Shown here piece by piece: positions 1-32,728 of a stretch of DNA of 38,613 bases. The DNA comes from Bacteroidales bacterium (GTDB lineage Bacteria > Bacteroidota > Bacteroidia > Bacteroidales > ML635J-15). The notes under the pieces were generated by a model. It ran no database searches, was not told where the DNA came from, and was given only the letters and a program-made list of their open reading frames with translations. How positions within the stretch are numbered: position 1 is the first letter of the stretch; each line of letters starts with the position of its first letter. The translations under genes and the position numbers were made by a program. Location: NCBI GenBank assembly GCA_027858835.1, contig JAQIBY010000081.1, forward strand, positions 1-38,613, read 5' to 3'.

Positions 1-1164
1 ATGCATAAGGATAAATACGTTTTTGCTCAATTAGTAGCCTTTCTGGATAGGAACAAGTTTAACTACATCGTTCGCAAGTACAATGGAGACAAATACGTGA
101 AGCATTTCACTTGTTGGAACCAACTGCTTTCTCTGATGTTCGGGCAATTGACAAATCGTGAAAGTCTTAGAGATTTGATTGTCGCACTTGACGCTCATCA
201 CTCCAAATCTTATCATTTGGGCTTGGGCAAGAATATTTCAAAATCATCTCTGGCCAGAGCCAACCAAGACAGAGACTATCACATCTTTGAAGAGTATGCT
301 TACTATCTGGTAAACGAAGCCAGACAGAAACGAGTTGCTGACATCTTCAAGCTTGAAGGCAATGTCTATGCTTTTGATTCAACGACGATTGACTTGTGCC
401 TTTCCGTATTCTGGTGGGCGAAGTTTCGTAAGAAAAAAGGTGGAATCAAAGTGCATACATTATATGATGTGGAGACACAGATACCAGCCTTTTTCCATAT
501 CACGGAAGCTTCTGTTCACGACTCTACAGCAATGAAAGAAATCCCTTATGAATCAGGCTCATATTACATATTTGACCGTGCATATAATCACTTCAAGATG
601 TTGTATAAGATTCATCAAATAGGAGCTTTCTTCGTTGTCAGAGCAAAGAAGAATCTTCAATACAAGATAATCAAATGGAAACGAAGATTACCAAAGAACG
701 TACTTTCAGACGTAACAATCGAATTGACAGGTTTTTATCCTAAACAATACTATCCAGAACATCTTAGATTGGTCAGATATTGGGATGAAGAACAAAAGCG
801 TGAGCTTGTATTCTTAACCAATGCGATGCACATTTCTGCACTTCAAGTTGCTGACCTTTACAAGAACCGCTGGCAAGTCGAGCTTTTCTTCAAGTGGCTA
901 AAGCAACATCTAAAAGTCAAGAAATTCTGGGGAACTACTGAAAATGCTGTTCGGATTCAAATCTACGCTGCGATGTGCACTTATTGCTTGGTGGCAATCG
1001 TCCAAAAAGACATGCAACTTGACAGAAGTACATATGAGGTTTTGCAGATATTGAGTATATCTTTAACAGATAAAACTCATCTTCGAGACCTATTTGAGAG
1101 AACTAAATTTCAAAATGACAAAGAACGTTTTAGGCTTAATGAGCCAAATTTGTTTAATTTTTAA
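1..1164 (+). CDS. IS4-family transposase (DDE, DUF4372 N-terminus)
   Basis: This is a 387-residue transposase catalysing cut-and-paste movement of its insertion sequence. The N-terminal 75 residues look like the DUF4372 DNA-binding region found ahead of DDE_Tnp_1 domains. The catalytic triad is visible: D126 in FDSTTID, D192 in YIFDRAY, and E294 inside the IS4-type Y-(2)-R-(3)-E-(6)-K signature (Y287, R290, E294, K301). The length is usual for the family and the frame is intact, so it may be active. The ATG is the first base of the window, so the left inverted repeat and any upstream sequence cannot be seen. The element sits downstream of the convergent foldase operon and breaks no visible gene. 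Family assignment is confident; the exact IS name is not. Confidence 0.93.
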   Translation: MHKDKYVFAQLVAFLDRNKFNYIVRKYNGDKYVKHFTCWNQLLSLMFGQLTNRESLRDLIVALDAHHSKSYHLGLGKNISKSSLARANQDRDYHIFEEYAYYLVNEARQKRVADIFKLEGNVYAFDSTTIDLCLSVFWWAKFRKKKGGIKVHTLYDVETQIPAFFHITEASVHDSTAMKEIPYESGSYYIFDRAYNHFKMLYKIHQIGAFFVVRAKKNLQYKIIKWKRRLPKNVLSDVTIELTGFYPKQYYPEHLRLVRYWDEEQKRELVFLTNAMHISALQVADLYKNRWQVELFFKWLKQHLKVKKFWGTTENAVRIQIYAAMCTYCLVAIVQKDMQLDRSTYEVLQILSISLTDKTHLRDLFERTKFQNDKERFRLNEPNLFNF

Positions 1165-1168
1165 TAAC

Positions 1169-1187
1169 GTCCCAATTTTAATGGGAC
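1169..1187. repeat. Hairpin at the IS right end
   Basis: Perfect 6-bp arms GTCCCA and TGGGAC enclose a 7-base AT loop, beginning five bases after the transposase stop codon. It may form part of the terminal inverted repeat or act as a transcription stop; there is no clear T-tract after it. Confidence 0.5.
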
Positions 1188-1298
1188 ACTAGTGGAATCT
1201 ATTACAAAAACAATTAATCAATACAAATTATCTGATTAAGCAAGCTTGACAATTCTCAATTGCATGAGCAATGCAAAAGAAAAAATGATCATGAATTA

Positions 1299-2633
1299 TT
1301 ATTTAGCCCATTCAGCGTATTCAAATTCACAATTCATGTAAGAAGAATCTATGCGAACATAAGTTGTTTCAAGGGTTTCTTTAATCCAGCTTTGAATTTT
1401 CTTCTGTTTTTTCTCAGCAACAGCAATTTCCTGGAAACGTTGGTAATCATCCTTTAGATTGGCTTGGTGCGCATCAATTTTGCGTTCAAGTTTAAAGAAC
1501 TTATACACCGTTTTGCCACGCATATCTCTTGTTTTAATCACTTTTGAATTTTGACCGGGTTTCAGTTGTTTCAACACATCACGGGCAAGTGGATCAAGTT
1601 GATCTTCTGTGAACCAAGTTTTTCCGGTTTGCATGTTTTGCATTGTACCGCCACTGTTTGCAGACATCTCATCTTCTGAATATTCTGCAGCTGCTTCTTC
1701 AAAAGTAATAGAATCTGCCAGCACTTTATCGCGCACAAGCTCTAAAGCAGCTTTTGCTTCATTTTCACTGCTGCGACCTGTACGTGGTGTCACCAAAATA
1801 TGGCGAACGTTTACCAGGTTTCCTCTACGCTCAATAAGTTGTAGAATATGATATCCGAATTCTGTTTCAACAATACGGGAAACATCGTCAGTAGATTTCA
1901 AATTAAAAGCAGCAGCAGCGAACTCAGGCACCAAATCTGTTCGTGAAACGAAACCTAATTCACCACCGGTCGGAGAAGAACCGGGATCATCGGAGTAAAG
2001 AACAGCCAAAGTTGAAAAATCGTCACCGTTTATTACCCTGTCACGATATTCATTAATCACTCGTTTACATCGCTCACGCTCTTCTTCAGCAACTTTAGGA
2101 TAAGCTGCAATTTGTTTAATCTGGTAAGTTGCCGGCAAAAAAGGAATACTGTCCTCCGGAATTTCATTGAAAAACTTCTTAACTTCTGAGGGTGTCACAC
2201 CGACATCAGCAGTTAATTGCTGCTGCATACGTTGTGTCAGTAATTGTTCCCGGATCATTTCACGGAACTCACTCTTAATATCACGGATAGATTTTCCGTA
2301 ATATTCTTCTAATTTTTGTTCAGAACCCAATTGATTAATAAACACGTTTAATCGACGGGATAATTCCCCATCAACTTCGGCAAGTGTCACTTCGACAGAG
2401 TCTCTTTCTGCTTGTAGTATCAATAATTTTTGAAACAACATCTCCTCGAGCACTTCGCAATTTACATCGCGTGTTCCCATGTACCCCTGACTGCGTAATT
2501 GAATTGCTTGTGCCTCAATTTCTGATTCAAGGATAATTTCATCTCCGACCACAGCGACAATCTGATCGATTAATTGTTGCGAAAATCCTTGTCCGACTAT
2601 AAAGACAAAGCACAACACCAATACTTTTTTCAT
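1299..2633 (-). CDS. SurA-like periplasmic peptidyl-prolyl isomerase/chaperone
   Basis: This 444-residue exported parvulin-type foldase is a SurA homologue, expected to help outer-membrane proteins fold in the periplasm. It begins MKKVLVLCFVF with a cleavable signal peptide ending near GFSQQ. A SurA N-terminal region follows (LIDQIVAVVGDEIILESEIE, then a helical part), then two PpiC/rotamase domains at roughly residues 150-255 (GGELGFV and FGYHILQ signatures) and 258-365. I chose the ATG at 2633; another in-frame ATG at 2642 adds only MQI. The longer reading frame to 2702 overlaps the previous gene and lacks a sensible signal peptide. It is the last gene of the guaB-foldase unit, 13 bases after its neighbour. 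SurA-like architecture is clear; orthology to E. coli surA is not proven, so no symbol is given. Confidence 0.9.
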   Translation of the reverse strand: MKKVLVLCFVFIVGQGFSQQLIDQIVAVVGDEIILESEIEAQAIQLRSQGYMGTRDVNCEVLEEMLFQKLLILQAERDSVEVTLAEVDGELSRRLNVFINQLGSEQKLEEYYGKSIRDIKSEFREMIREQLLTQRMQQQLTADVGVTPSEVKKFFNEIPEDSIPFLPATYQIKQIAAYPKVAEEERERCKRVINEYRDRVINGDDFSTLAVLYSDDPGSSPTGGELGFVSRTDLVPEFAAAAFNLKSTDDVSRIVETEFGYHILQLIERRGNLVNVRHILVTPRTGRSSENEAKAALELVRDKVLADSITFEEAAAEYSEDEMSANSGGTMQNMQTGKTWFTEDQLDPLARDVLKQLKPGQNSKVIKTRDMRGKTVYKFFKLERKIDAHQANLKDDYQRFQEIAVAEKKQKKIQSWIKETLETTYVRIDSSYMNCEFEYAEWAK

Positions 2634-2646
2634 TATTTGCATAAAA

Positions 2647-3504
2647 CTAATTTTCCTTATAAACGATGCTTTGCTTACTTTTAGCATCCTGATACAAATC
2701 ATTTACGAATTTATCCAACAATTCATTTTGGCGCTGATTCAACAAAACCTTCTCAATCTCACTATAAATCAACGACATGGGAATTGTATCACCGGACATT
2801 TTTTGCTCATTTATTTTTACGATATACCGATTTTCATCATCTTGGGTTGTAAAATATCCCAACTGCAAGCCGTACTCAAGCTCGGGAGTTAATGTGGCAT
2901 TAATTTCTTCCAATAAATCAGAAAAATAGATCCAATCGTTGTGCTCAAACACCTGAATATTTGAGCGTTTTTCGGCATCGTACAACAAATCCATATCTCC
3001 GGGGGATGAGCGTCGCACTTTATCAAGTTCATAATAATAACTTAAAACTTCGGCATCCATAATAATATAATGCGCTTTAACCGCCAGTTCCTCCAGTTTA
3101 TACTCGCCCAAATTAGACTCGTAATAATCTCGAATTTCATCAACCCTAAGGCTTGAATCGAGATTTGATTTCACGTATTCTGTTTCCATCTCATACCGAA
3201 AAAGCTCGCGGCGATAATCCTGAATTTTCCCATGAATTCTCATGGTGTCTCGCAATCTTTGCTTCGCATACTGATAGATTAATTCCTGATTTATCCAACT
3301 ACTGATATAATTATCAGCAACTTCAGCGGAATCCTCAGGAATAAAATATGATGGAATAACCGCATCCAAATCCGAATTATACAAACTTCTCTCATGCACT
3401 GTGACGATGACATTATCAGCTTGAGCTTCCGGTTTTGGATTGCATGAAAACAAAAACATAGATGCTATCAATACAATGAATATGCTATTTTTCAGAATTC
3501 TCAT
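2647..3504 (-). CDS. Lipoprotein related to SurA/PpiC foldases, no rotamase domain
   Basis: This is a 285-residue predicted lipoprotein: an N-terminal hydrophobic stretch ends in the lipobox LFSC (Cys near residue 21). The mature part starts with a short strand (VIVTVHERSLYNSDLD) like the first strand of SurA/PpiD chaperone domains and continues mostly as helices with many acidic and Tyr residues. I do not see the rotamase signatures (G-G-x-LG-F, FGYH) present in both neighbours. It probably belongs to the foldase superfamily as a chaperone-only member. Its ATG overlaps the upstream gene's TAA by one base (TAATG), which suggests translational coupling. The position between two clear parvulins supports an envelope-folding role. 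The function itself is inferred. Confidence 0.8.
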   Translation of the reverse strand: MRILKNSIFIVLIASMFLFSCNPKPEAQADNVIVTVHERSLYNSDLDAVIPSYFIPEDSAEVADNYISSWINQELIYQYAKQRLRDTMRIHGKIQDYRRELFRYEMETEYVKSNLDSSLRVDEIRDYYESNLGEYKLEELAVKAHYIIMDAEVLSYYYELDKVRRSSPGDMDLLYDAEKRSNIQVFEHNDWIYFSDLLEEINATLTPELEYGLQLGYFTTQDDENRYIVKINEQKMSGDTIPMSLIYSEIEKVLLNQRQNELLDKFVNDLYQDAKSKQSIVYKEN

Positions 3505-5474
3505 TATTGAGCCAGTTTTTTAAGCACATCCTCATGGATTTTTACTTCATATTTTTCATGCAGTGATTTAATCCATTGTTTTTCAAGATAGTTTTGATAG
3601 TCGGCGGTAATCACACCTCGAGCTTCATGCAAGGCTTTTAATGATGGTTTGCGTAAACGCATATCCAAGACTCGGGAATCGTCCATTAACGTAATTACTC
3701 GTCCTTTTTTCTCTAACTTTTTGGCATATTCTTCAGCAAGCTCATCTGCGAAATGATTATCTCCGGCTTCATAAACAGTCCAATGTTCTTTCACAACAGC
3801 TGAAGAGTCGCTTGCATTATAAATTGAATCAATCTCTGCCCAATCAGCTTTCGGATTTTTTTTGATATGCTTCAATACTTTTTTACGCAGCTTTTTGTCG
3901 TCTGCACTTAGGACATGAACATCATAACGGGTATCCCATTGGTAGTTTTCTTTATTTTTCTCGTAAAAGCCTTCAAGACCAACAGTATCTTTTACCGCTT
4001 TTGACCAAACTTTGCGATCTGTTACATCAAAAAGCAAAATGCCATCATGGTACTCTTTCATCAAGAAATTAAATTTTTTATATTTACTTTCCAAATTTTC
4101 TTCCTCATAAAGCAGAATCATTTTTTCTTGAAAATCATCAAATTTTTGATTGATAAAATGAGTTAACACTTTAGGTTCTGATTTACGATTAAATTTTGTC
4201 ATATATCGAGCAAAATCTTCCTGCGTATATTGTGCATCAGCAAAGCTAAATACAACATCATTCATTTTATAAGCCGCTTTCGCGTCCCATTTACCATAGA
4301 AAATTGAATCAGTAATCATATCAGAGACAGCCTTTATGGCTTCATCATGAACGACAGCATTATAATCATCCATTAAACGTTCAACGAGAACAGTTTTTGA
4401 GCGAGACGCTCTGGCAGAATTAGAAATACGATTTTTCAATTGTATTTTTTGTTCCTCAAAACTACCGATAGGTTCAACATCCACGAGTTTGATAAAATGA
4501 TATCCATAAGAAGTTCGCAGTGCATTACTCACTCCCCCGACTTCACTGAGCTGGAAAGCAGCATTTTCAAATTCAGGGATCATTTTTCCACCGACTCCAA
4601 ACCAAGGCAGTAATCCACCTTGTCTTCCGGATCGTCTGTCTTCAGAAAATTCTTTTGCAAGCTCTTCAAATGATTCGCCGGCATCTAATTTTTTCTGAAT
4701 CATTTCAACACGCTCCTGAGCCTGAGCTTGTTGCTCCTCGATTGCATCTTTAGGTAACAAAACCATGATATGTGCAACGCGAATTCTTCCTTTAGCAAGC
4801 CGTTTTTCTTCTATCTTAATAATATGGTATCCAAAACGAGTTCTTACGATGTCAGAGATTTCACCCACCTCCGTATTATAAGCAGCCGATTCAAAAGGAT
4901 ATACCATTCCAAAAACGGTAAAATATCCTAAACTTCCTTGGTTATAACGCACTGACTCATCGTCGGAATATTTTTTTGCAAGTGTTCCAAAATCCTCACC
5001 ATCAAGTAATTTCTGGCGCACCATTTTTGCTTTATTATATGCAGCAAGGGTGTCTTTGCCAGTAATTTCAGGGTCAATTTTTATTAAAATATGCGACGCT
5101 TTCACATCGTATTTTGAGCGCTCATAAGCCTCTCGAATCAATTCATCCTCAACTGATTTATCAGTTAAATAAGGCTGGGCTAATTGGGTACGATACCCAC
5201 TCAATTCGCTGCGAAAGCTTTTAAGTGTATCTAAACCCATTGTTTTAGCTTCCACAACTTTCAATTTGAAGTTCACAAACAAATCCATATAAGCGGATAA
5301 TGAATCCAACGCATAGGATAATTCTTGATGTCTGTTGTTTTTTGTATAGATATGTAAAAATTCGGCTGTCATAACCTGCTCATCTCCGACTTCAAGAATA
5401 ATATCAGAATTTTCCTGTGCCATTGCATTCATACCGAAAGCAATCATTAAAAGGCTAATAAAAATCTGTTTCAT
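3504..5474 (-). CDS. Periplasmic parvulin-type peptidyl-prolyl isomerase, two rotamase domains
   Basis: This is a 656-residue exported foldase. A signal peptide (MKQIFISLLMIAFG, cleavage after AMA) precedes an N-terminal SurA-like helical region. Two complete PpiC domains follow, at about residues 124-225 (ASHILIKID, YSDDESVRYNQGSLGYF, FGYHIIKIEE) and 231-335 (VAHIMVLLPK, FSEDRRSGRQGGLLPWF, YGYHFIKL). A long C-terminal helical region of about 300 residues is unlike any catalytic domain I know and may hold clients. It is encoded 24 bases after guaB and coupled to the next gene by a TAATG overlap. It should work in the periplasm on outer-membrane or T9SS-exported proteins. Catalytic domain calls are confident; client specificity is unknown. 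Confidence 0.9.
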   Translation of the reverse strand: MKQIFISLLMIAFGMNAMAQENSDIILEVGDEQVMTAEFLHIYTKNNRHQELSYALDSLSAYMDLFVNFKLKVVEAKTMGLDTLKSFRSELSGYRTQLAQPYLTDKSVEDELIREAYERSKYDVKASHILIKIDPEITGKDTLAAYNKAKMVRQKLLDGEDFGTLAKKYSDDESVRYNQGSLGYFTVFGMVYPFESAAYNTEVGEISDIVRTRFGYHIIKIEEKRLAKGRIRVAHIMVLLPKDAIEEQQAQAQERVEMIQKKLDAGESFEELAKEFSEDRRSGRQGGLLPWFGVGGKMIPEFENAAFQLSEVGGVSNALRTSYGYHFIKLVDVEPIGSFEEQKIQLKNRISNSARASRSKTVLVERLMDDYNAVVHDEAIKAVSDMITDSIFYGKWDAKAAYKMNDVVFSFADAQYTQEDFARYMTKFNRKSEPKVLTHFINQKFDDFQEKMILLYEEENLESKYKKFNFLMKEYHDGILLFDVTDRKVWSKAVKDTVGLEGFYEKNKENYQWDTRYDVHVLSADDKKLRKKVLKHIKKNPKADWAEIDSIYNASDSSAVVKEHWTVYEAGDNHFADELAEEYAKKLEKKGRVITLMDDSRVLDMRLRKPSLKALHEARGVITADYQNYLEKQWIKSLHEKYEVKIHEDVLKKLAQ

Positions 5475-5498
5475 AAATACTAAATTTAAAATTTTTAA

Positions 5499-6977
5499 TT
5501 AATATTCTCTGCTATAGTTTGGTGCCTCCCGGGTAATTGAAACATCATGCGGATGACTCTCAATCATTCCGGAATTTGTAATACGAACGAATTTTGCATC
5601 GTTTTGGTGTGCATCAATATCTTTTGATCCGCAATATCCCATTCCTGCTCTTAATCCTCCGACGAGCTGATAAATAACTTCAGTCAAAGTTCCTTTGTAA
5701 GGTACTCTGGCAGCAATACCTTCCGGGACAAGCTTTGCAACATCTGCTTCATCGCCTTGAAAATATCTGTCTTTCGAACCTTTTTGCATGGCCTCAATTG
5801 AGCCCATTCCGCGGTAAGATTTGAATTTACGACCATTATATATGATGGTTTCTCCGGGAGACTCTTCAGTTCCGGCAAATAAACTTCCGGCCATTACACT
5901 TGATGCCCCGGCAGCAATTGCTTTCACGATATCACCGGAATAACGCAAACCACCGTCTGCAATAACCGGAATATCCATCCCTTCCAAAGCATCTGCGACT
6001 TCAAACACGGCAGATAATTGCGGCATTCCCACACCTGCAATGACACGAGTTGTACAAATTGAACCGGGCCCAATTCCAACTTTCACAGCATCAGCACCAT
6101 GCTTAGCCAAGAATTTTGCAGCTTCAGCAGTTGCAATATTTCCCACCACAACATCAATTTGCGGATATTTTTCTTTAATAAATGTCAAAACACTAATTAC
6201 CGGCTTTGAATGTCCGTGAGCTGTATCAATCACAATCGCATCTGCTTCAGCTTCAGCAAGTGCTTTTATTCTGTCAAATGTATCGCCGGATGTTCCGACA
6301 GCAGCAGCAACACGCAAACGTCCTTTTTCATCTTTACAGGAATTCGGACGATCTTTTGCTTTGAAAATATCTTTATAAGTTAACAATCCAACTAATTCAT
6401 AATTCCCATTAACAACCGGGAGTTTTTCAATTTTATGTTTTTCCAGCAAACTGGTTGCGTTTTCAAGATTCTCATCCTGATTCATGGTAATCAGATTTTC
6501 ACTGGTCATTACCTCTTGTATCGGCATGTTAAAATCTTCCTGAAAACGTAAATCGCGGTTTGTAACAATCCCAACAAGTTTTCTTGAATTATCAACGACA
6601 GGGATTCCTCCGATCTTATTTTCACGCATTAAATCAAGGACTTCACCTACAGTTACATCATTTGTAATGGTAATCGGATCATAAATCATACCGTTATCTG
6701 CACGTTTTACGCGTTTAACATGTAGGGCCTGTTGCTCAACTGTCATGTTTTTATGAATAACCCCAATTCCCCCTTCACGAGCAATTGCAATTGCCATTTT
6801 CGATTCGGTGACAGTATCCATAGCAGCTGATACAATGGGAGTTTTCACAATAATATTACGAGAAAAACGGCTGGTAATATTTACCATTTTTGGCAATACC
6901 TCAGAATAAGCAGGAACCAATAAAACATCGTCAAATGTTAGTCCTTCAAAAATCACTTTGTTTGATGCTAATGACAT
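5499..6977 (-). CDS. guaB: Inosine-5'-monophosphate dehydrogenase
   Basis: This 492-residue enzyme oxidises IMP to XMP with NAD+, the committed step of GMP synthesis, in the cytoplasm. The N-terminal [13 protein letters not shown] and [10 protein letters not shown]-type motifs are typical of IMPDH. Two CBS domains occupy about residues 95-205 ([30 protein letters not shown]). The catalytic loop GPGSICTTR has the active-site Cys at position 308. The C-terminal flap RGMGSIEAM is present. The length is normal for the family. It is the first gene of a minus-strand unit with three envelope foldases and is divergent from recQ, with a possible -7 box 27 bases upstream. Purine synthesis also appears in this window as purA. 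Confidence 0.98.
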
Positions 6978-7004
6978 GAGAATTTTTGTTAAATTTATGA
7001 TGCA

Positions 7005-7012
7005 CGAAAATA
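7005..7012 (-). promoter_or_regulatory. Candidate -7 box for the guaB operon
   Basis: TATTTTCG matches the Bacteroidota -7 consensus TAnnTTTG at all but one fixed position and lies 27 bases before the guaB ATG in the guaB/recQ divergent gap. No convincing -33 TTG is seen at the usual spacing. Confidence 0.45.
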
Positions 7013-7070
7013 CAAAAATTTATTTGTCATCTAAATTTAATTATATTTAAAGCATAATTTCTGTATAAGC

Positions 7071-8975
7071 ATGAATGAATTTCAGAAAATACTGGTAAAA
7101 TACTGGGGTTTCAGCACATTTCGAGACTTGCAGGAGGAGATTATTCAATCTGTTTCTGAAGGCAAAGATACACTCGGATTGATGCCAACAGGTGGCGGAA
7201 AGTCAATAACCTTCCAAGTTTTTTCGCTTTCCCGCGACGGAATCTGCTTAGTCATCACTCCACTGATTGCTTTAATGAAAGATCAGGTTTTTAATTTACG
7301 CAAGCGTGAAATAAAAGCCACAGCAATTTATTCCGGTATGAGCAAAGCAGAAATGGACATGGTCTTGAACAATGCCATGAATGGAAATTACAAATTTCTT
7401 TATTTATCGCCTGAGAGACTGCAAACAGAGCTATTCCAAGAGCGACTAAAACAAATGAATGTCAATTTAATTGCAGTTGACGAATCGCATTGTATTTCAC
7501 AATGGGGTTATGATTTTCGTCCCTCCTATCTGGAAATTGCAAATATCCGCGAATTAATTCCGGATGTTCCCATTCTTGCACTTACAGCCACTGCTACACC
7601 AGAGGTTGTAGATGACATTCAGGATAAATTACAATTTAAGGCAAAAAATGTCCTGAAAAAAAGCTTTGAACGAAAAAATTTAGCCTATGTAGTTCGAGAA
7701 ACAGAAAATAAAGGCTATGAATTATTAAAAATTGCAAAAAATATTCCCGGGTCAGCTGTTGTTTATGTCCGAAGTCGAAATAAAACAAAACAAATTGCCG
7801 AGTATTTAAAAAAATATGGTCATTCTGCCGATTTTTATCATGCAGGATTGTCAAAAGAAAGCCGGGAGCAAAAACAAGAAGACTGGCAAAATGACAAAAT
7901 CCGCATCATGGTTTCAACCAATGCCTTTGGAATGGGAATTGACAAACCGAATGTACGCTGGGTTGTACATATTGACCTTCCCGATACGTTGGAAGCCTAT
8001 TTTCAGGAAGCAGGACGCGGCGGTCGTGATGAAAAGAAAGCATGGGCTGTTTTATTGTACAACAAAAGCGATGAAGCCAAATTAACAAGACGAATTGCCA
8101 TCAATTTTCCACCCGTGGATAAAATAAAGCGAACCTACGAAGCGCTCGGAAATTATTTTCAATTACCGGTTGGAGCAGGTGAAGGCATGGCTTACGATTT
8201 TGATATTTTCGATTTCTCAAAGAAATTCAAAATTGATATTAACACAACTTATCATAGCTTACAAGTCCTTAAAAGACAATCATATATTGAGTTAACCGAT
8301 GAATTAAACAATCCGAGCCGCATTCTCTTTAAAGTTAAACGAGATGATTTGTATAAATTCCAGGTGGCAAATCAAAGTTACGATGCATTTATCAAATTAG
8401 TACTCAGGTCATACACAGGTCTTTTCACCAGTTTCACTCCGATTTCTGAAGATTTATTGGCAAAACGGGCAAAAGTCAAGCAAGATGTGATTGTTGAATA
8501 CCTAAAACATTTGAACAAGCTTAATGTCATCGATTACATTCCCCGAAAAAACAAGCCCTTAATTATATATACCCAATCCCGTCTGGGTCAGGATTATTTG
8601 TTTATTGACGGAAAAGATTATCGCGAACGAAAAGCGCGCTTTGAAAAACGACTTTCAGCCGTATTACATTATGCCAACACAAGTGCAAAATGTCGCAGCC
8701 AAATTTTACTTGAATATTTCGGACAAAAAAATCCGAACCGCTGCGGTCAATGTGATATATGCCTTCGCCGAAATGAATTGGGATTAAGCAAATATGAATT
8801 TGATTTGATTCTTGATCAAACAAAAATTAAAATTAAAGAAAACCCACTGTTATTAAATGAAATCGTTGAACAGAGTAAGTATCCGCAAGAAAAACTTATC
8901 AAAGTAATTGAATGGTTATTCGACAATAAAAAAATTAAACGCGATGATGAAAACAAAATTTTCTGGAATGACTAA
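7071..8975 (+). CDS. recQ: ATP-dependent DNA helicase RecQ
   Basis: This 634-residue 3'-to-5' DNA helicase acts in recombinational repair and replication-fork processing. Walker A is PTGGGKS (residues 39-45), the Walker B box is DESH (137-140, a variant of DEAH), motif III is LTATATPEV, and motif VI is QEAGRGGRD. The RecQ zinc-binding site follows with C541, C558, C561 and C564. After the zinc site only about 70 residues remain, so a classic HRDC domain appears absent; the tail may be a short winged-helix piece. The ATG at 7071 gives the expected MNEFQKILVKYWGF start. It is transcribed away from guaB, and its gene is monocistronic or leads the next plus-strand genes. Confidence 0.96.
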   Translation: MNEFQKILVKYWGFSTFRDLQEEIIQSVSEGKDTLGLMPTGGGKSITFQVFSLSRDGICLVITPLIALMKDQVFNLRKREIKATAIYSGMSKAEMDMVLNNAMNGNYKFLYLSPERLQTELFQERLKQMNVNLIAVDESHCISQWGYDFRPSYLEIANIRELIPDVPILALTATATPEVVDDIQDKLQFKAKNVLKKSFERKNLAYVVRETENKGYELLKIAKNIPGSAVVYVRSRNKTKQIAEYLKKYGHSADFYHAGLSKESREQKQEDWQNDKIRIMVSTNAFGMGIDKPNVRWVVHIDLPDTLEAYFQEAGRGGRDEKKAWAVLLYNKSDEAKLTRRIAINFPPVDKIKRTYEALGNYFQLPVGAGEGMAYDFDIFDFSKKFKIDINTTYHSLQVLKRQSYIELTDELNNPSRILFKVKRDDLYKFQVANQSYDAFIKLVLRSYTGLFTSFTPISEDLLAKRAKVKQDVIVEYLKHLNKLNVIDYIPRKNKPLIIYTQSRLGQDYLFIDGKDYRERKARFEKRLSAVLHYANTSAKCRSQILLEYFGQKNPNRCGQCDICLRRNELGLSKYEFDLILDQTKIKIKENPLLLNEIVEQSKYPQEKLIKVIEWLFDNKKIKRDDENKIFWND

Positions 8976-9041
8976 ACTAAAAATGATATCTTGGCAAGGA
9001 TTTTGATAAAATGGAAAACATAAACCTAAATTAATACGATT

Positions 9042-10148
9042 ATGAAAAAATCTTTACTCACTATCATCATGTTTGCCTTCATTAGCAGCTTATTTGCACA
9101 AAACAGCAATCTAATCATTTTTAGTGACCAAGGCGAAGCGTTCACCATGTATTTAAATGGCATCCAGCAAAACCAAAAGCCAGTAGCTAATGTAAAAGCC
9201 ATTGATCTGAATGCTGATTTTTACAAAGTTCGTTTAGAATTTAACAACAAATCCATTCCGACCCTAGATAAAAGTGTTTGGTTTGAAACTCCCGGAATGG
9301 AATACACATTTAACATTACCCAAAAGAAAAATGGGAAGTATGCATTGAGACCGGTTAGCCAAACTGCAATTGCAGAAAGCACAGATAATTCTGGGATTAC
9401 CGAAAGCGATTACGAAACTCCGGGAACGACAACATCAAAGCAGAAAGAAAGTTGGGCAAGTGAACCAACAGGTGAAAAACCAAGTTCGGATAAGGCTAAA
9501 ATTAATGTTAACATGACCGGCACCTCAATGGATGTAAATGTTGATGATGAAAACGGCGAGCAAGTAGATGTCAATGTAAATTTTGACATGGATGAAAACA
9601 TGAGTACTCAAACAACCACGACAACAAGCACAAACGGAAATCCGGATAATATACATGTAAATATGGATGTTAACGAAACGGAAATGGATGAAAACATTGA
9701 AATTAATATGAGCATCCAGGGAAGTGGCACACAAACAAGTACTAGTACAACGACAACTACCACCACAACAAGCACAAGCACAAATGCAGGGAACACTGAT
9801 TACTATGAAAGCATGGTGAATGAAGAAAATGAAACCATTAGTCATAGTGGAAATTGCAATAGCCCCATGTCAAGTTTTGATTTTGACGATGCAAAAACTG
9901 CTATTGATGAAAAAACTTTCGATGACAGTAAAATAACACTGGCAAAACAAATTACACGGGCTAACTGCTTAAGCTCAGATCAGGTAAGAGACATTATGAA
10001 AGCCTTAGACTACGAAGATTCCCGCTTGGAATATGCAAAATTTGCTTATGATTATGTTTATGACCCAAACAATTATTATAAAGTGAATTCAGCATTTGAA
10101 TTTGAAATGACAATTGAAGAATTGGAGGAATTTCTCGAAAATAAATAG
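9042..10148 (+). CDS. Exported DUF4476 protein with Thr-rich internal repeats
   Basis: This 368-residue predicted secreted or periplasmic protein has a signal peptide (MKKSLLTIIMFAF, cleavage near LFAQ). A beta-rich N-terminal region to about residue 110 is followed by low-complexity sequence. The C-terminal ~95 residues fit DUF4476: a Cys-Asn-x-Pro-Met start, KITLAKQI, a second Cys in NCLSSDQV, then LEYAKFAYDYVYD and NYYKVNSAFEF. The middle (about 155-250) holds two copies of a module, each an acidic NVNMDVN/MDEN segment followed by a run of Thr and Ser. DUF4476 has no established biochemical role that I can name. The gene is followed by a strong intrinsic terminator, so it ends a transcript. 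Export and domain call are confident; the function is unknown. Confidence 0.85.
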   Translation: MKKSLLTIIMFAFISSLFAQNSNLIIFSDQGEAFTMYLNGIQQNQKPVANVKAIDLNADFYKVRLEFNNKSIPTLDKSVWFETPGMEYTFNITQKKNGKYALRPVSQTAIAESTDNSGITESDYETPGTTTSKQKESWASEPTGEKPSSDKAKINVNMTGTSMDVNVDDENGEQVDVNVNFDMDENMSTQTTTTTSTNGNPDNIHVNMDVNETEMDENIEINMSIQGSGTQTSTSTTTTTTTTSTSTNAGNTDYYESMVNEENETISHSGNCNSPMSSFDFDDAKTAIDEKTFDDSKITLAKQITRANCLSSDQVRDIMKALDYEDSRLEYAKFAYDYVYDPNNYYKVNSAFEFEMTIEELEEFLENK

Positions 10149-22999: not shown

Positions 23000-24550
23000 A
23001 TGAAAAAACTAAGTGTTATCATCTTGATTAGTTTCCTCAGCATCAGCTTATTTGCTCAGGAAAGTATAGAAATTGATTTTGAGATTAACCAAAATAGCAA
23101 CCAATTGGTTTTGGATTCAGTGCTGATAGAAAACACGACAGCAACTTGTGACACAATGATTTATTATCCAAATACCACACTTAATCTAAATATGCTTTCC
23201 GGAATTGAGGAGCTCTACAGTCAAAATAAATTGCATGTAAGGGCAAACTACCCAAACCCTTTTGATGCATACAGTATCATTGAATTATATGTCCCGGAAC
23301 AGACTGTGCAATTTTCAATTTATGACATTCAGGGAAAATCAGTCTTAGAAAAAGAAATTATCTGCGGAAGCGGCTTACAACAATTTAAATTTCATGCCGG
23401 TGCAGAAGCGCAATACCTTATAAAAGTGAAATCCGGAAATCAAAACACCAGTTTGCAACTTATGCACAGTGGCGATACAGGAAGCAAAGCACAAATTGAG
23501 CATTTGGGAAAAATCAGTGAAGCAAAAAACACAACACAAAAAGCCAATGGATTCTCCTTCACTTCCGGCGATCAACTAAATTTCACAGCTTGGGTAATAG
23601 CTTGCGGCACTGTAGAATCAACGAATGCAAGTGCCCAACCGGAAGGAAGCGAGATAATCAGTTTTGATTTCACACACTTAAGCAATTTACAAGCCTCAAC
23701 ACCGGAAATTGATGAAATTATTCCCGGAGAAAATGAAATTACGTGGAAATGGTCGGATGTCTCTGATAGTGATGGCTATAAATATGCTTATGTAAATGAT
23801 TACGAAACAGCAACCGATATTGGCACAACAACTCAAATGACAACTGACGATTTAAGCGCCGGCACAAATTATAAATTATTCATTTGGGCATATAATGACT
23901 GCGGTGAGTCACATGCTTTGGAAATGTATCAAGCGACCTCAGCCATTCCGTTTACACAAGATGAAAACGATACCATTACAAATGCACCGTCAAACAGCAG
24001 CATGGCGGTTATGAATATTTTCGAACAACCAGACAGCATCATCCTGAGAACACCTTCAACCAATGTTTTATTTGATGAAGAGAATCTTGATTATCTCGTG
24101 GAGCGCATGCAAAGCACTGTTAGCGCAGAATCCGGCGTTGGAATAGCTGCACCACAAGTTGGAATTAACAGACTTGTTATCTGGGTACAACGGTATGATA
24201 TTGGAGCAATTATGCATCCTTGGGAAGTGTATTACAACCCAAGAATTGTTAATTATTCTGATACTGTAGTTTACAAAAATGATGGATGTTTATCTGTTCC
24301 TACGAGCGGTGATTATCCCGAAATCGAAGGATTTTCATACCGAGCAATTTGGGTAGATGTTGAGTATTACACTGAAACCGGAGAAAAAGTGGTTGAACGG
24401 ATTAATCATCAATATACAGCGCATATTTTCCAACATGAAATTGATCATCTGAATGCAGTTATGTTCTTTGACAGACAAGTTGAAGAGGGTAAAGACAGGT
24501 TCACAATTATTGAAGGCGATTCTTACGAAGGACTTCCAACTATTGATTAA
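23000..24550 (+). CDS. Exported peptide deformylase fused to sorting-like and FN3-like domains
   Basis: This is a 516-residue protein. A signal peptide (MKKLSVIILISFLSI, cleavage after LFAQ) is followed at about residues 82-157 by a T9SS-type sorting-like module (NYPNPFDAYSIIELYVPE, SIYDIQGKSVL, YLIKVKSG), here near the N-terminus rather than the C-terminus. An FN3-like domain (about 231-315) precedes a peptide deformylase domain (about 336-505). All three deformylase motifs are there: GVGIAAPQ (379-386), DGCLS (428-432, Asp instead of the usual Glu) and HEIDH (479-483). Metal ligands C430, H479 and H483 and catalytic E480 are kept. Ordinary Def works in the cytoplasm on new proteins; this one is predicted to be outside it. 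The target is unknown. It has 177 bases upstream and an unlinked GIN lipoprotein downstream. Confidence 0.9.
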   Translation: MKKLSVIILISFLSISLFAQESIEIDFEINQNSNQLVLDSVLIENTTATCDTMIYYPNTTLNLNMLSGIEELYSQNKLHVRANYPNPFDAYSIIELYVPEQTVQFSIYDIQGKSVLEKEIICGSGLQQFKFHAGAEAQYLIKVKSGNQNTSLQLMHSGDTGSKAQIEHLGKISEAKNTTQKANGFSFTSGDQLNFTAWVIACGTVESTNASAQPEGSEIISFDFTHLSNLQASTPEIDEIIPGENEITWKWSDVSDSDGYKYAYVNDYETATDIGTTTQMTTDDLSAGTNYKLFIWAYNDCGESHALEMYQATSAIPFTQDENDTITNAPSNSSMAVMNIFEQPDSIILRTPSTNVLFDEENLDYLVERMQSTVSAESGVGIAAPQVGINRLVIWVQRYDIGAIMHPWEVYYNPRIVNYSDTVVYKNDGCLSVPTSGDYPEIEGFSYRAIWVDVEYYTETGEKVVERINHQYTAHIFQHEIDHLNAVMFFDRQVEEGKDRFTIIEGDSYEGLPTID

Positions 24551-24700: not shown

Positions 24701-25558
24701 ATGAAACTCATGAAACGAATCGGAATTATTATGACATTATCAATGTCACTACTTTTTATCATGCAATCTTGCATGTTTGATGCCCGCACAATTCGCGGAA
24801 CCGGTGATTTACAAAGCAAAATTATTACAACACGAGGCTTTGATGCAATCGAACTTAACAGCATTATCAATTTGGAAATCAGTCAATCTGAAACTCAGGA
24901 AATCAAAATTGAAGCACAAGAAAACCTCATGGAATTAATTGAAGTGTATGTTTATAACAACACCTTGTACATTGATGCAATCAAATCCTACAATCTGCGT
25001 CCGGAAAAACCAATCACAGTTTATATTGCTACACCGGAAATTCAATCATTGAGCGCAAAAGGCACCGGAAATATTTTAGGCACAGAACGATTTCAGCTTG
25101 ACTCGCCACTAAACCTGAGCATTGATGGTACCGGCGACATTGATTTTGCATGGGATTATACTGAGTTTGTAACACTTGAATCTGACGGAACCGGCGATAT
25201 GTTTGTCAGCGGAAATGCTTCAGACTTATATGTGGATATAGATGGCACAGGAAATCTACATCTGGATGGTGAATTCAACAATTCTGAATTTGATATTGAT
25301 GGCACGGGCTCTTGCTTTATCGATGGACAGACAAAATCCAACCACATCAAAATTGACGGAACCGGCGGTTTTTACGGACTAAATTTCATCTCCAAAAAAA
25401 GCAGTGTGAAAATTGATGGCACAGGAAATGCTGAAGTTTTTGCAATAGAATCGCTATCTGTAAGTATTAACGGCTCCGGAAATGTGTATTACTCCGGAAA
25501 TCCGAATGAGCTTTTTTACACTGGCAATGGATCAGGAAAGCTAATTGCGGCTCAATAA
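24701..25558 (+). CDS. GIN-domain (DUF2807) lipoprotein with repeated IDGTG turns
   Basis: This 285-residue predicted lipoprotein begins MKLMKRIGIIMTLSMS with lipobox MQSC (Cys at about 25). The mature part is the GIN/DUF2807 beta-helix: RGTGDLQSKIITTRGFDAIELNSI, then NLEISQSETQEIKIEAQENLME, then a run of seven or so turns with the motif IDGTGN/SDGTGD about every 18-24 residues. Such proteins are exported beta-helices of unknown function, often annotated as adhesin heads; that name is not evidence of adhesion. The ATG at 24701 is chosen; 24710 is equally possible. It is followed by a long inverted repeat. Confidence 0.9.
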   Translation: MKLMKRIGIIMTLSMSLLFIMQSCMFDARTIRGTGDLQSKIITTRGFDAIELNSIINLEISQSETQEIKIEAQENLMELIEVYVYNNTLYIDAIKSYNLRPEKPITVYIATPEIQSLSAKGTGNILGTERFQLDSPLNLSIDGTGDIDFAWDYTEFVTLESDGTGDMFVSGNASDLYVDIDGTGNLHLDGEFNNSEFDIDGTGSCFIDGQTKSNHIKIDGTGGFYGLNFISKKSSVKIDGTGNAEVFAIESLSVSINGSGNVYYSGNPNELFYTGNGSGKLIAAQ

Positions 25559-29872: not shown

Positions 29873-32728
29873 TTATTGTTTAGCAAGTTTTACAAACTGA
29901 GATTTCACAACATCATCTTCGGTTTCAATCAGAATAAAATACAAGCCGGCTGCAAAATCAGACACATTAATTTCACTGCAATGTGTATCAATTGAAAGCA
30001 TTAATTCTCCACTAGAATTATAAACCTGTAATTGTTTAAACGGAACATTAAGTGTTAGTTTCAAAACATCCTGTACAGGATTTGGATACAATTTAAATTT
30101 AAGATTTTCTTGAACATCAATTGCCGTTGGTCCGAAGACCGTAATCTCTGAAGCAATTTCGTAAAATGAATCCTCGCACCAAGGATTTGAAGCAGTTAAA
30201 CTCACTTGATAATTTCCTTCAGCAGCATAATAATGATATGGGTTGATTTCTTCGGAGCTATTACCATCGCCAAAATCCCAAAGATAGCTTTCTGCACTTA
30301 AAGAAGTATTATCAAACACAGCAAGTGCTTCCGGCAAAAACAATTCAAAAGTATTCACAGAAAAATATGCTGTTGGAGCTTCATGAATTGTAATAAAATC
30401 CTCAACTTCAAGCAAATCAGATTCCACAATTCCCTGCGCAGCTAAACTTAAAGAGAAAACACCCGGGGCATCATAAACAACCACCGGATTCATCTCAGAA
30501 CTTGATTCTACATTTGCCCCGGGAAAAGACCAGGTATATGAATCGGCATTTTCAGAAGTATTTGTAAAATGTATGGCTTCCCCGACGCAGAAATCCTGAG
30601 TTTCCAATTCAAAGGATGCAATCGGGTCCGGAATATATTCATATTTCACAGCATCATAAGCAATGCTTTGTCCATCAATTCCTGTTGAGTCGCCAAGATA
30701 GGTATAAAACTCTGCACCAGACAGATATTCAAAGCTACCAAGACTCACCCATTCATCAGAATACTCATTCTGATTAACAATTACCGTATGTTCTCCGTTG
30801 GCATCAAAAATCTTATACGGAACTCCTTCAGCATCCGCGCTACTTGAAGGTATATAAGCCGAGATTTCATAATATCCTTCCTCCTCAGGTGTCGGAATCC
30901 ATTTGACATAGCAAATATCTGATTCATCAGCCATTGTAAGTGTGTACCAGGAGTGATTATTATAACCTGCATTCACATCTCTGAAATATCGTTGCGTGCT
31001 ACCAGCTTCACTATTATTCATTTCAAACCCGTGATTGTAATGATTATTATCGATCACCAGATTACTGTATTCAACTTCACTTGCATGCGTTGTAATTGTC
31101 CAAGCAATTACGCCATACGCTCCACTGTGGTCAAGATTCTGATAACCGTTATTGTATCCCGGCCAATCGTAATATGCTTTCTGTCCATCATAACTCGGCC
31201 AGCTTGGCGTATTTTTATCCCCGTAAGGTTCACTAAAAATCAAAGTATGCTGATTTTCAATGTATCCCTTTGTCAGGATAAGATGTCCGGCATCAGATAG
31301 CATCGCACACATTGGTAATGGATAATCTGCATCAATTTCAGAAATAACACTTGTCCAAGTCACTGAACTATTCCAAAGTTGAGAAGATTCAAAATAATGG
31401 AGCTCAAGATAATTCAACATTTGTGAATTGGGAGAACCCAAGCTCCACATGTAGCCGTATCCGCCGTATGCAAGATCTCCTCCGGAAGTTGTTGTATTCT
31501 CTTCAAAATAATGTTCATTAAAACGATATCTATCAGACACATAAGAGCCATAATCACTATTATGCGGATAAAGCTTTGTGATTGCGGTGGGCCATTTCGG
31601 CAATAAATTATAATAAGAAATCGCCATAATTGCACAAGTGGGAGCACACGAACCATAACCATAATGTGCATCCGGTGTATCATAAACCTGATGCGTGTAT
31701 GGCACAATGCCCGGAATTAGCTGTTCCGATTTTGTCGTAGTCAAATCAAAAAACTCGATTTCAAGCTCATCAGCATATTTATAAATCAGGGTTTTCGATT
31801 GATTATCAAGGCTTAATTTATAGATGGCATTTTCAGCATAATCAGTAAAAAGCAATTCATTTTCGGAAATAGGAAATGGATGCTGCTCAAGAATATTCGG
31901 GGTATTTGTAATTTTCTGATGCCGTCCGTCAAGATAACTACACCGATACAACTCTGCCACAGTTAAGGTATAATCGGTTGTTTCTTGTTTGGAAAAAACA
32001 ATATGTTCAGAATCAGTAGCCCATTTAGGACTTAATCCATGCCCGAGATATTTCAATTTATTGCGTTCAATATCATACACAAACATTCCATCGGATTGGT
32101 ACAAAACTTTCTTGCTATCCGGTGAAAACTGCGGATATACACTCATTTTACCAGATTCAGACAATTGCTTTTTGCTTCCGTCAGACAAATTCATTAAAAT
32201 TAATTCATCATTGGGAGTAGAATACACCAAATACTGATGATTATCAGAGATTTTGACAATATTCGAATAATTCGGCAGAATAATTCGTTGCGATTTTGAC
32301 TCTGTTTGATTAATTATCAAATCATTACCGATCGTAAAGTAATGAGATTGTGAGGTAAATCCGACTTGTCCGCAGAGGGAAACCTCATCATGTAAAAACT
32401 GTATTGTTTCAGTTTCAAGATTAATAAGCGCCGGTCGTTGTCCGGTTTTCGTGATATACTTGAAACCAACTTGTTTTCCATCCGGAGATATCGTAAAATA
32501 TCTTCCACAGCCCGGTGCAGATAGTAGTTTTTTCAGCTGTCCCGACTGCAAATAGTATAATGTATTGCTATAATTATCTGTAAAAACACAACCATCCAAA
32601 ACGGGTTTTGCATTGATAAAATATCCTTGCTCCTCCATAAAATACGCATCATGTGGACGATTTTGAGCAAAGCTGGAAAGCACAAGCATGAAAATCACAA
32701 ACAGAAAAACAGTTTTTTTCATAGTCAT
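29873..32728 (-). CDS. T9SS cargo with C39-peptidase-like, golvesin-like and PKD domains
   Basis: This 951-residue exported protein has these domains in order: signal peptide (MTMKKTVFLFVIF, cleavage near FAQN); TolB/PD40-like propeller about 30-330 (FTISPDGKQVGFK, YPQFSPDSKKVLYQSDG, SPKWATDSEHIVFS); C39-type papain-like peptidase about 342-550 with Cys361 in GYGSCAPTCAIMAISYY and His482 in GHLILTKGY, then FSEPYGD; golvesin-like carbohydrate-binding-type domain about 553-700; two PKD domains about 701-783 and 785-865 (the second with YLWDFGDGNSSEEINPYHYY); and a type A T9SS sorting tail about 877-951 (KLYPNPVQDVLKL, AAGLYFILIE). It should be placed on the cell surface or released. Peptidase activity is predicted from motif placement. 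The MKK ATG at 32722 is an equal start. Confidence 0.9.
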   Translation of the reverse strand: MTMKKTVFLFVIFMLVLSSFAQNRPHDAYFMEEQGYFINAKPVLDGCVFTDNYSNTLYYLQSGQLKKLLSAPGCGRYFTISPDGKQVGFKYITKTGQRPALINLETETIQFLHDEVSLCGQVGFTSQSHYFTIGNDLIINQTESKSQRIILPNYSNIVKISDNHQYLVYSTPNDELILMNLSDGSKKQLSESGKMSVYPQFSPDSKKVLYQSDGMFVYDIERNKLKYLGHGLSPKWATDSEHIVFSKQETTDYTLTVAELYRCSYLDGRHQKITNTPNILEQHPFPISENELLFTDYAENAIYKLSLDNQSKTLIYKYADELEIEFFDLTTTKSEQLIPGIVPYTHQVYDTPDAHYGYGSCAPTCAIMAISYYNLLPKWPTAITKLYPHNSDYGSYVSDRYRFNEHYFEENTTTSGGDLAYGGYGYMWSLGSPNSQMLNYLELHYFESSQLWNSSVTWTSVISEIDADYPLPMCAMLSDAGHLILTKGYIENQHTLIFSEPYGDKNTPSWPSYDGQKAYYDWPGYNNGYQNLDHSGAYGVIAWTITTHASEVEYSNLVIDNNHYNHGFEMNNSEAGSTQRYFRDVNAGYNNHSWYTLTMADESDICYVKWIPTPEEEGYYEISAYIPSSSADAEGVPYKIFDANGEHTVIVNQNEYSDEWVSLGSFEYLSGAEFYTYLGDSTGIDGQSIAYDAVKYEYIPDPIASFELETQDFCVGEAIHFTNTSENADSYTWSFPGANVESSSEMNPVVVYDAPGVFSLSLAAQGIVESDLLEVEDFITIHEAPTAYFSVNTFELFLPEALAVFDNTSLSAESYLWDFGDGNSSEEINPYHYYAAEGNYQVSLTASNPWCEDSFYEIASEITVFGPTAIDVQENLKFKLYPNPVQDVLKLTLNVPFKQLQVYNSSGELMLSIDTHCSEINVSDFAAGLYFILIETEDDVVKSQFVKLAKQ

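Follow-up and report, generated by a model that had tools for sequence, protein, structure and literature searches.

A conserved branch of predicted exported peptide deformylases in Bacteroidota

A gene for a peptide deformylase (PDF) preceded by an N-terminal signal sequence was found in a contig of a Bacteroidales bacterium, within the window, the whole stretch of 38,613 nucleotides that was analysed. Sequence comparison indicates that the encoded protein belongs to a known enzyme family, within which it falls in a real and conserved exported branch whose function we infer. The branch is apparently undescribed; among the open PMC matches listed, preprints aside, no title or opening of an abstract describes a bacterial PDF that is exported, periplasmic, secreted or a lipoprotein. 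Our main reading, to which we give a probability of about 0.5, is that the branch is an extracytoplasmic deformylase that would unblock N-formyl peptides for digestion. Work on PDF has treated it as a drug target and as a cytoplasmic enzyme linked to the ribosome, and a conserved exported branch would imply N-formyl peptide substrates outside the cytoplasm.

Domain layout of the window protein

An open reading frame of 516 residues at 23000..24550 on the + strand encodes the PDF-domain protein, as established by an ORF check and translation. The N-terminus, MKKLSVIILISFLSISLFA followed by QE, resembles a type I signal peptide by eye and by hydropathy (residues 1-19, 23000..23056, + strand; hydropathy 2.75; PDF domain 333 residues downstream), and we infer both the type I class and a cleavage before QE, directly after SLFA. 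No lipobox Cys follows the signal sequence in this protein. With an N-terminal signal sequence ahead of the mature domain, the protein has the layout predicted for Sec export.

Three further parts follow on the + strand. A Por_Secre_tail-like domain, resembling the type A sorting domain of T9SS substrates, occupies residues 84-151 on the N-terminal side (23249..23452; PF18962, 29.5 bits, cut-off 27; TIGR04183, 31 bits, cut-off 23). Residues 246-305 (23735..23914) match PF00041 at 20.9 bits, below the cut-off of 25, and this domain is therefore called FN3-like. The deformylase domain spans residues 338-495 (24011..24484; PF01327, 101.1 bits, cut-off 22.8) and contains motif I GVGIAAPQ (residues 379-386, 24134..24157), motif II DGCLS (residues 428-432, 24281..24295) and motif III QHEIDHL (residues 478-484, 24431..24451). 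The metal ligands C430, H479 and H483, the catalytic E480 and Q386 of motif I are all in place. The preliminary description of this DNA had proposed the same succession of signal peptide, sorting-like domain, FN3-like domain and full deformylase domain with its metal ligands and catalytic Glu, together with the Asp in motif II, and all of these parts were borne out.

For the PDF domain alone, AF2 gave a mean pLDDT of 90.5 from an 80-row alignment of the window and locus sequences, and the best matches of this predicted model among solved structures were PDFs, with Z up to 22.5 (VIA Z 22.5 to 6jf3, the class I type b enzyme of A. baumannii, rmsd 1.4 over 143 residues). The window protein resembles cytoplasmic def (PF01327) in its predicted fold, and also in motifs I and III, the Cys/His/His ligands and the catalytic Glu, but differs from it in the export signal, the extra N-terminal domains, the motif II Asp, an altered position 86, an R398-x-D400 signature, its placement on a separate branch and its score below the cut-off of TIGR00079. 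Against this pept_deformyl equivalog the window protein scored 91.8 bits, under the curated cut-off of 103.95, as did four of the five exported relatives scanned (88.8-100.6 bits); the fifth, a fusion protein from genome G500, scored above it (105.8 bits), and the ordinary def of the window genome scored 147.7 bits. An AF2 model of the full-length protein from an 18-row alignment reached a pLDDT of 66.9, insufficient for the PDF part, and Foldseek searches with this low-confidence model returned mostly FN3 chains at low TM-scores, lending weak support to the FN3-like part.

The signal of T9SS type A proteins acts at the C-terminus. The window protein shares with these proteins (PF18962/TIGR04183) a related domain, and its genome has a T9SS, as seen from SprA (2714 bits), but the domain is C-terminal in T9SS type A proteins, whereas the only match in the window protein lies at residues 84-151 of 516. 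Because the type A signal works C-terminally and the window protein has none there, T9SS export was not inferred. The N-terminal domain does not in itself show T9SS secretion, and from the sequence a periplasmic and a surface location are both possible.

Judging from its recurrence, the N-terminal module is swappable and occurs with different cargo in other proteins of the lineage. A related module of signal and sorting-like domain, in some cases with an FN3-like part, precedes Fib_succ_major (PF09603) in five proteins from this family and order (L178, L179, L180, L182 and L185) and DUF285 in a sixth protein (L177); these differ from the window protein in that Fib_succ_major or DUF285 takes the place of the deformylase. 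We would accordingly not count the sorting-like/FN3-like module as part of the catalytic machinery and regard it as a likely spacer or surface module. L177 (window genome, contig C133, 1587-3290, + strand) shares 27% identity with residues 1-199 of the window protein and has no Por_Secre_tail match of its own. In L177-L180, L182 and L185, too, the sorting-like domain is at the opposite end from that of a type A signal. Elsewhere in the window, a 951-residue protein (29873-32728, - strand) with Golvesin_C, PKD and Peptidase_C39_2-like domains and a C-terminal Por_Secre_tail looks like an ordinary T9SS substrate. Directly downstream of the PDF gene and on the same strand lies a gene for a DUF2807 (head GIN) protein (24701-25558, + strand); no functional link between these two genes was found.

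A separate branch beside the ordinary deformylase

A protein search of 61 genomes recovered relatives over nearly the full length, with 40-53% identity, in the same family, and 62 loci with relatives were found in a public genome collection. Among the 31 sampled genomes of the family (G000-G030), 28 have an exported-type PDF, full-length or short, and three (G001, G020 and G024) have ordinary def alone; G024 additionally has a fragment matching residues 1-141 of the window protein, and G001 (83% complete) is the one genome sampled from the window's genus besides the window genome itself. The full-length and the short form (~200-250 residues) occur together within ~3.1 kb at one locus (L040). 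Beyond the order, exported PDFs stand alone, are apparent lipoproteins, follow a DUF1684 domain (G431) or precede an M1 peptidase domain (G500). When the class was sampled evenly, 12 of 395 genomes gave a match of at least 143 bits, and a sample of the phylum gave matches in 2 of 198, both within the class; at E 1e-38 or better, matches were present in 6 of 13 genomes of the family of G500 and in 8 of 42 genomes of the order of G501. The preliminary description had suggested a search for the order signal, sorting, FN3 and deformylase in other Bacteroidota; exported-type PDFs occur in many genomes and in several architectures.

Thirty-one of the 33 strongest loci (L023-L055, of 62 in total) were translated and aligned, two with broken frames being excluded. 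Neither the alignments nor the tree include L037 (frameshifted, 15 stops), L041 (in-frame stops) or L170, a copy of L041. Also removed, as duplicates, were L002-L022, L115 and L130, with identical PDF domains confirmed for L003-L017 and L019-L022; the PDF domain of L004 is identical to that of the broken L170, and L018 (G011, exported-type, 217.8 bits), a non-duplicate, is missing from the tree and the counts. Alignments A1 and A2 and the tree contain near-identical rows, such as L030 and L039. The gene copy with in-frame stops (L041/L170) comes from a Marinilabiliales MAG (G029) and may be a decaying gene or an assembly error.

Exported and ordinary rows were split at an HMM score of 140 bits with a profile built on exported rows, so distant exported PDFs could be missed. 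A signal-sequence rule independent of this split, based on hydropathy and distance to the domain and allowing ATG, GTG and TTG starts in both groups, was positive in 49/49 exported-type and 0/75 ordinary rows; with ATG starts alone, the values were 47/49 and 0/75. A tree of 124 PDF domains separated all 49 exported-type domains from the 75 ordinary ones at a single branch (SH-aLRT 96), with one change. Since it came from a quick search, with 57 of its 120 inner branches open for weak support, and has no fixed root, this tree is to be read as a separation and not as a rooted clade.

A canonical lipobox is present in 13 of the 49 exported rows, 11 found by script and two (L046 and L047) scored by eye where the script had picked a later Met. 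These rows bear on one alternative, in which the enzyme acts in the periplasm and deformylates membrane or exported proteins of its own cell. Cleavage by signal peptidase takes the formylated N-terminus away along with the signal peptide, which would leave N-out membrane proteins as the only targets of such maturation. We consider this alternative improbable: the lipoboxes and the statement that exported proteins escape cytoplasmic deformylation (PMC12690207) speak for it, but the branch is not general in the class, as the count of 12 in 395 indicates.

Selection on the gene was assessed in pairs of relatives. The PDF part had dN/dS of 0.04-0.15 in 11 of 13 pairs, namely those with a computable dS, which exceeded 1 in three of the 11; two further pairs were not computable. 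The N-terminal part had dN/dS of 0.10-0.34 and lay above the PDF part in 9/9 pairs with both values. On these ratios, the catalytic domain is kept by selection. A sequencing or annotation artefact was rejected in view of this purifying selection and of the full-length relatives in many MAGs.

In the window genome (3.6 Mb, 99% complete), PF01327 matches twice, at the exported PDF and at an ordinary def, the latter a 185-residue open frame on contig C64. Ordinary def is also found in 42 of the 43 genomes carrying an exported-type PDF, where G029 is counted as a carrier despite its copy with in-frame stops; the exception is G056, with a single match, and the ordinary match of G027 is cut by a contig end. 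The idea that the window protein is the sole deformylase of its genome, raised as a possible objection in the preliminary description, was therefore rejected. More than one PDF has been reported in 48% of bacterial species across 5,042 reference genomes (PMC12690207), and such tallies of accessory PDFs may lump exported enzymes together with cytoplasmic ones.

Active site and P1' pocket

The active site is retained almost throughout the branch: Q386, both His ligands (H479 and H483) and the catalytic Glu are present in 49/49 exported rows and the Cys ligand in 48/49. A mutated metal site, another possible objection to the earlier interpretation, was found neither in the window protein nor in these 48 rows; a cytoplasmic location, the third such objection, was examined through the signal sequence, which the window protein has. 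The single exception to the intact metal site is an exported PDF of genome G201 (L139/L160), in which Asp stands in for the ligand Cys of motif II (EGDLS) and HExxH is kept. Branch-diagnostic residues include R369, R398, D400 and T473; at R398-x-D400 (24191..24199, + strand), R occurs in 48/49 and D in 49/49 exported rows, whereas among cytoplasmic rows D occurs in 5/75 and R is outside the six commonest residues.

Motif II of PDF is given as EGCXS, or as EGCLS plus a hydrophobic residue, and exact conservation of the motifs is described as inessential for activity, unless the exceptions are sequencing errors (PMC12690207). The window protein has DGCLS instead of an EGCXS-type motif with Glu, and the Asp is invariant across 32 aligned exported PDF domains (alignment A1). 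At this position (88 in the E. coli numbering used below, assigned by motif offset), Asp is found in 36/49 exported rows (34/34 of the window clade and 2/15 other exported rows), and Glu in 75/75 ordinary rows. Because all 34 window-clade rows share the Asp, it was taken as a trait of the branch, and a defective site was rejected.

Positions 86, 88 and 125 are among those of the P1' pocket (PMC12690207). Position 86 is hydrophobic (M, F, Y, L, V or I) in 60/75 ordinary rows; among exported rows, 32/34 of the window clade have R or K there, and 13/15 others have G or C, with G in ten of these 15. Position 125 is Y in 31/34 window-clade rows and F in 13/15 other exported rows. From these altered positions, the substrate pocket of the exported branch has probably been re-tuned, and fMet may not be its preferred residue. 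A polar P1' pocket formed by a D88-H128 pair was also considered and dropped, since a His four residues before H132 is present in 28/75 cytoplasmic rows too.

The same P1' differences are the reason for retaining a second alternative, in which the PDF fold and metal site serve an altered hydrolase with a changed pocket, acting on another N-formyl or N-acyl compound or on formyl-peptides that do not begin with Met. Residues R/K or G/C at 86, Asp at 88 and Y/F at 125 would fit it, but the near-complete retention of Q386, the ligands and the catalytic Glu argues against it, as does Def2 of V. cholerae, which has G86 and F125 and can nevertheless sustain growth when the canonical PDF is absent (PMC12690207). 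We regard an altered hydrolase as rather unlikely. Def2 resembles the exported branch in being a second PDF beside an ordinary def and in its changes at 86 and 125, which match the G (10/15) and F (13/15) of exported rows outside the window clade; it differs in that it replaces the canonical PDF for growth and lowers actinonin susceptibility (PMC12690207), whereas the exported branch carries export signals. A word search of the main text of PMC12690207 did not find 'lipoprotein', 'extracellular', 'Bacteroid' or 'Flavobacter'.

A non-catalytic role, as a decoy soaking up PDF inhibitors such as actinonin or as a binder of formyl-peptides, appears very improbable. PDF inhibitors are present in the environment (PMC12690207) and L139 has lost its ligand Cys, but the branch retains its active site, and purifying selection acts on the PDF part. 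Arg97 binds actinonin in V. cholerae Def1 (PMC12690207), and it is present at the anchored position in 0/34 window-clade and 4/15 other exported rows, a weak argument against a decoy because only 24/75 ordinary rows have Arg97 and the length of the loop varies.

Gene associations and proposed function

One exported PDF among those examined is fused to a peptidase: L123 of G500 (4923-7412, + strand) encodes an exported 830-residue PDF-Peptidase_M1 protein, whose M1 domain has HExxH-18-E, as counted on the sequence. M1 aminopeptidases require a free N-terminus. In G263, 8 bases separate the PDF gene, read from an ATG start, from the preceding gene on that strand, which encodes an exported protein of Peptidase_C1_2, a family that includes aminopeptidases. 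Neighbours encoding Peptidase_C25 and PAD_porph proteins are found at four related rumen loci (L029, L030, L037 and L039, of which L030 and L039 are nearly identical). No neighbour family common to all loci of the branch was found, and an FTCD gene beside the PDF gene in some rumen loci was taken as chance. Overall, the gene associations point to peptide breakdown.

We therefore return to the deblocking of N-formyl peptides as the preferred reading. The PDF would cross the inner membrane by Sec and act as a periplasmic or surface enzyme, as a lipoprotein in some relatives, where it would hydrolyse the formyl group off N-formylated peptides; the freed N-terminus would then let exported aminopeptidases digest the peptide. 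Candidate substrates are remnants of the cell's own formylated signal peptides and peptides of lysed cells or organelles. According to PMC12690207, deformylation generally bypasses exported proteins that carry a signal peptide, and a possible substrate would therefore exist outside the cytoplasm. Counted against the deblocking reading are the restriction of the M1 fusion and of the C1_2 neighbour to one genome each, that of the C25 and PAD_porph neighbours to the four related rumen loci, the lack of a neighbour family common to the branch, the pocket changes, the Cys loss in L139, the stops in G029 and the lack of an exported PDF in G001.

More tentatively, some Bacteroidota may have a second, extracytoplasmic deformylation step, in which a re-tuned exported PDF uncaps own or foreign N-formyl peptides and feeds aminopeptidases, to one of which it is fused. 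If so, a deformylase would have a role independent of the ribosome. With the exported branch, it becomes possible to test what happens to formylated signal peptides, and natural exported deformylases are possible tools for removing formyl-peptide signals.

The last of these points touches a further alternative, in which the enzyme deformylates formyl-peptides sensed by hosts or microbes and dulls chemotaxis or immune detection. A deformylase has been proposed as an agent to destroy N-formyl peptides, and deformylation as a way to inactivate their signalling, in a review (PMC6563851) that calls its own treatment data unpublished; the proposal lends plausibility to the signal idea without being evidence for such behaviour in these bacteria. 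The gene of the rumen lineage adjoins gingipain-type and PAD genes, which would fit such a role. Against it, the carriers include a groundwater MAG (L049) and others whose record titles suggest free-living sites (an apparent spring, cave, lake and digester) besides the rumen, so host contact does not seem needed, and no host-specific marker was found. We hold signal quenching to be quite unlikely. The preliminary description had offered the blunting of host or microbial peptide signals as speculation; it gained no direct support here, and the earlier interpretation as a whole is partly supported.

At the rumen locus L039, the C25 and PAD_porph domains were confirmed, and both proteins have C-terminal sorting domains. 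Genes for a gingipain-like C25 protease, a PAD_porph deiminase, the exported PDF and a MORN-repeat protein stand there in a row on one strand (445-9135, + strand).
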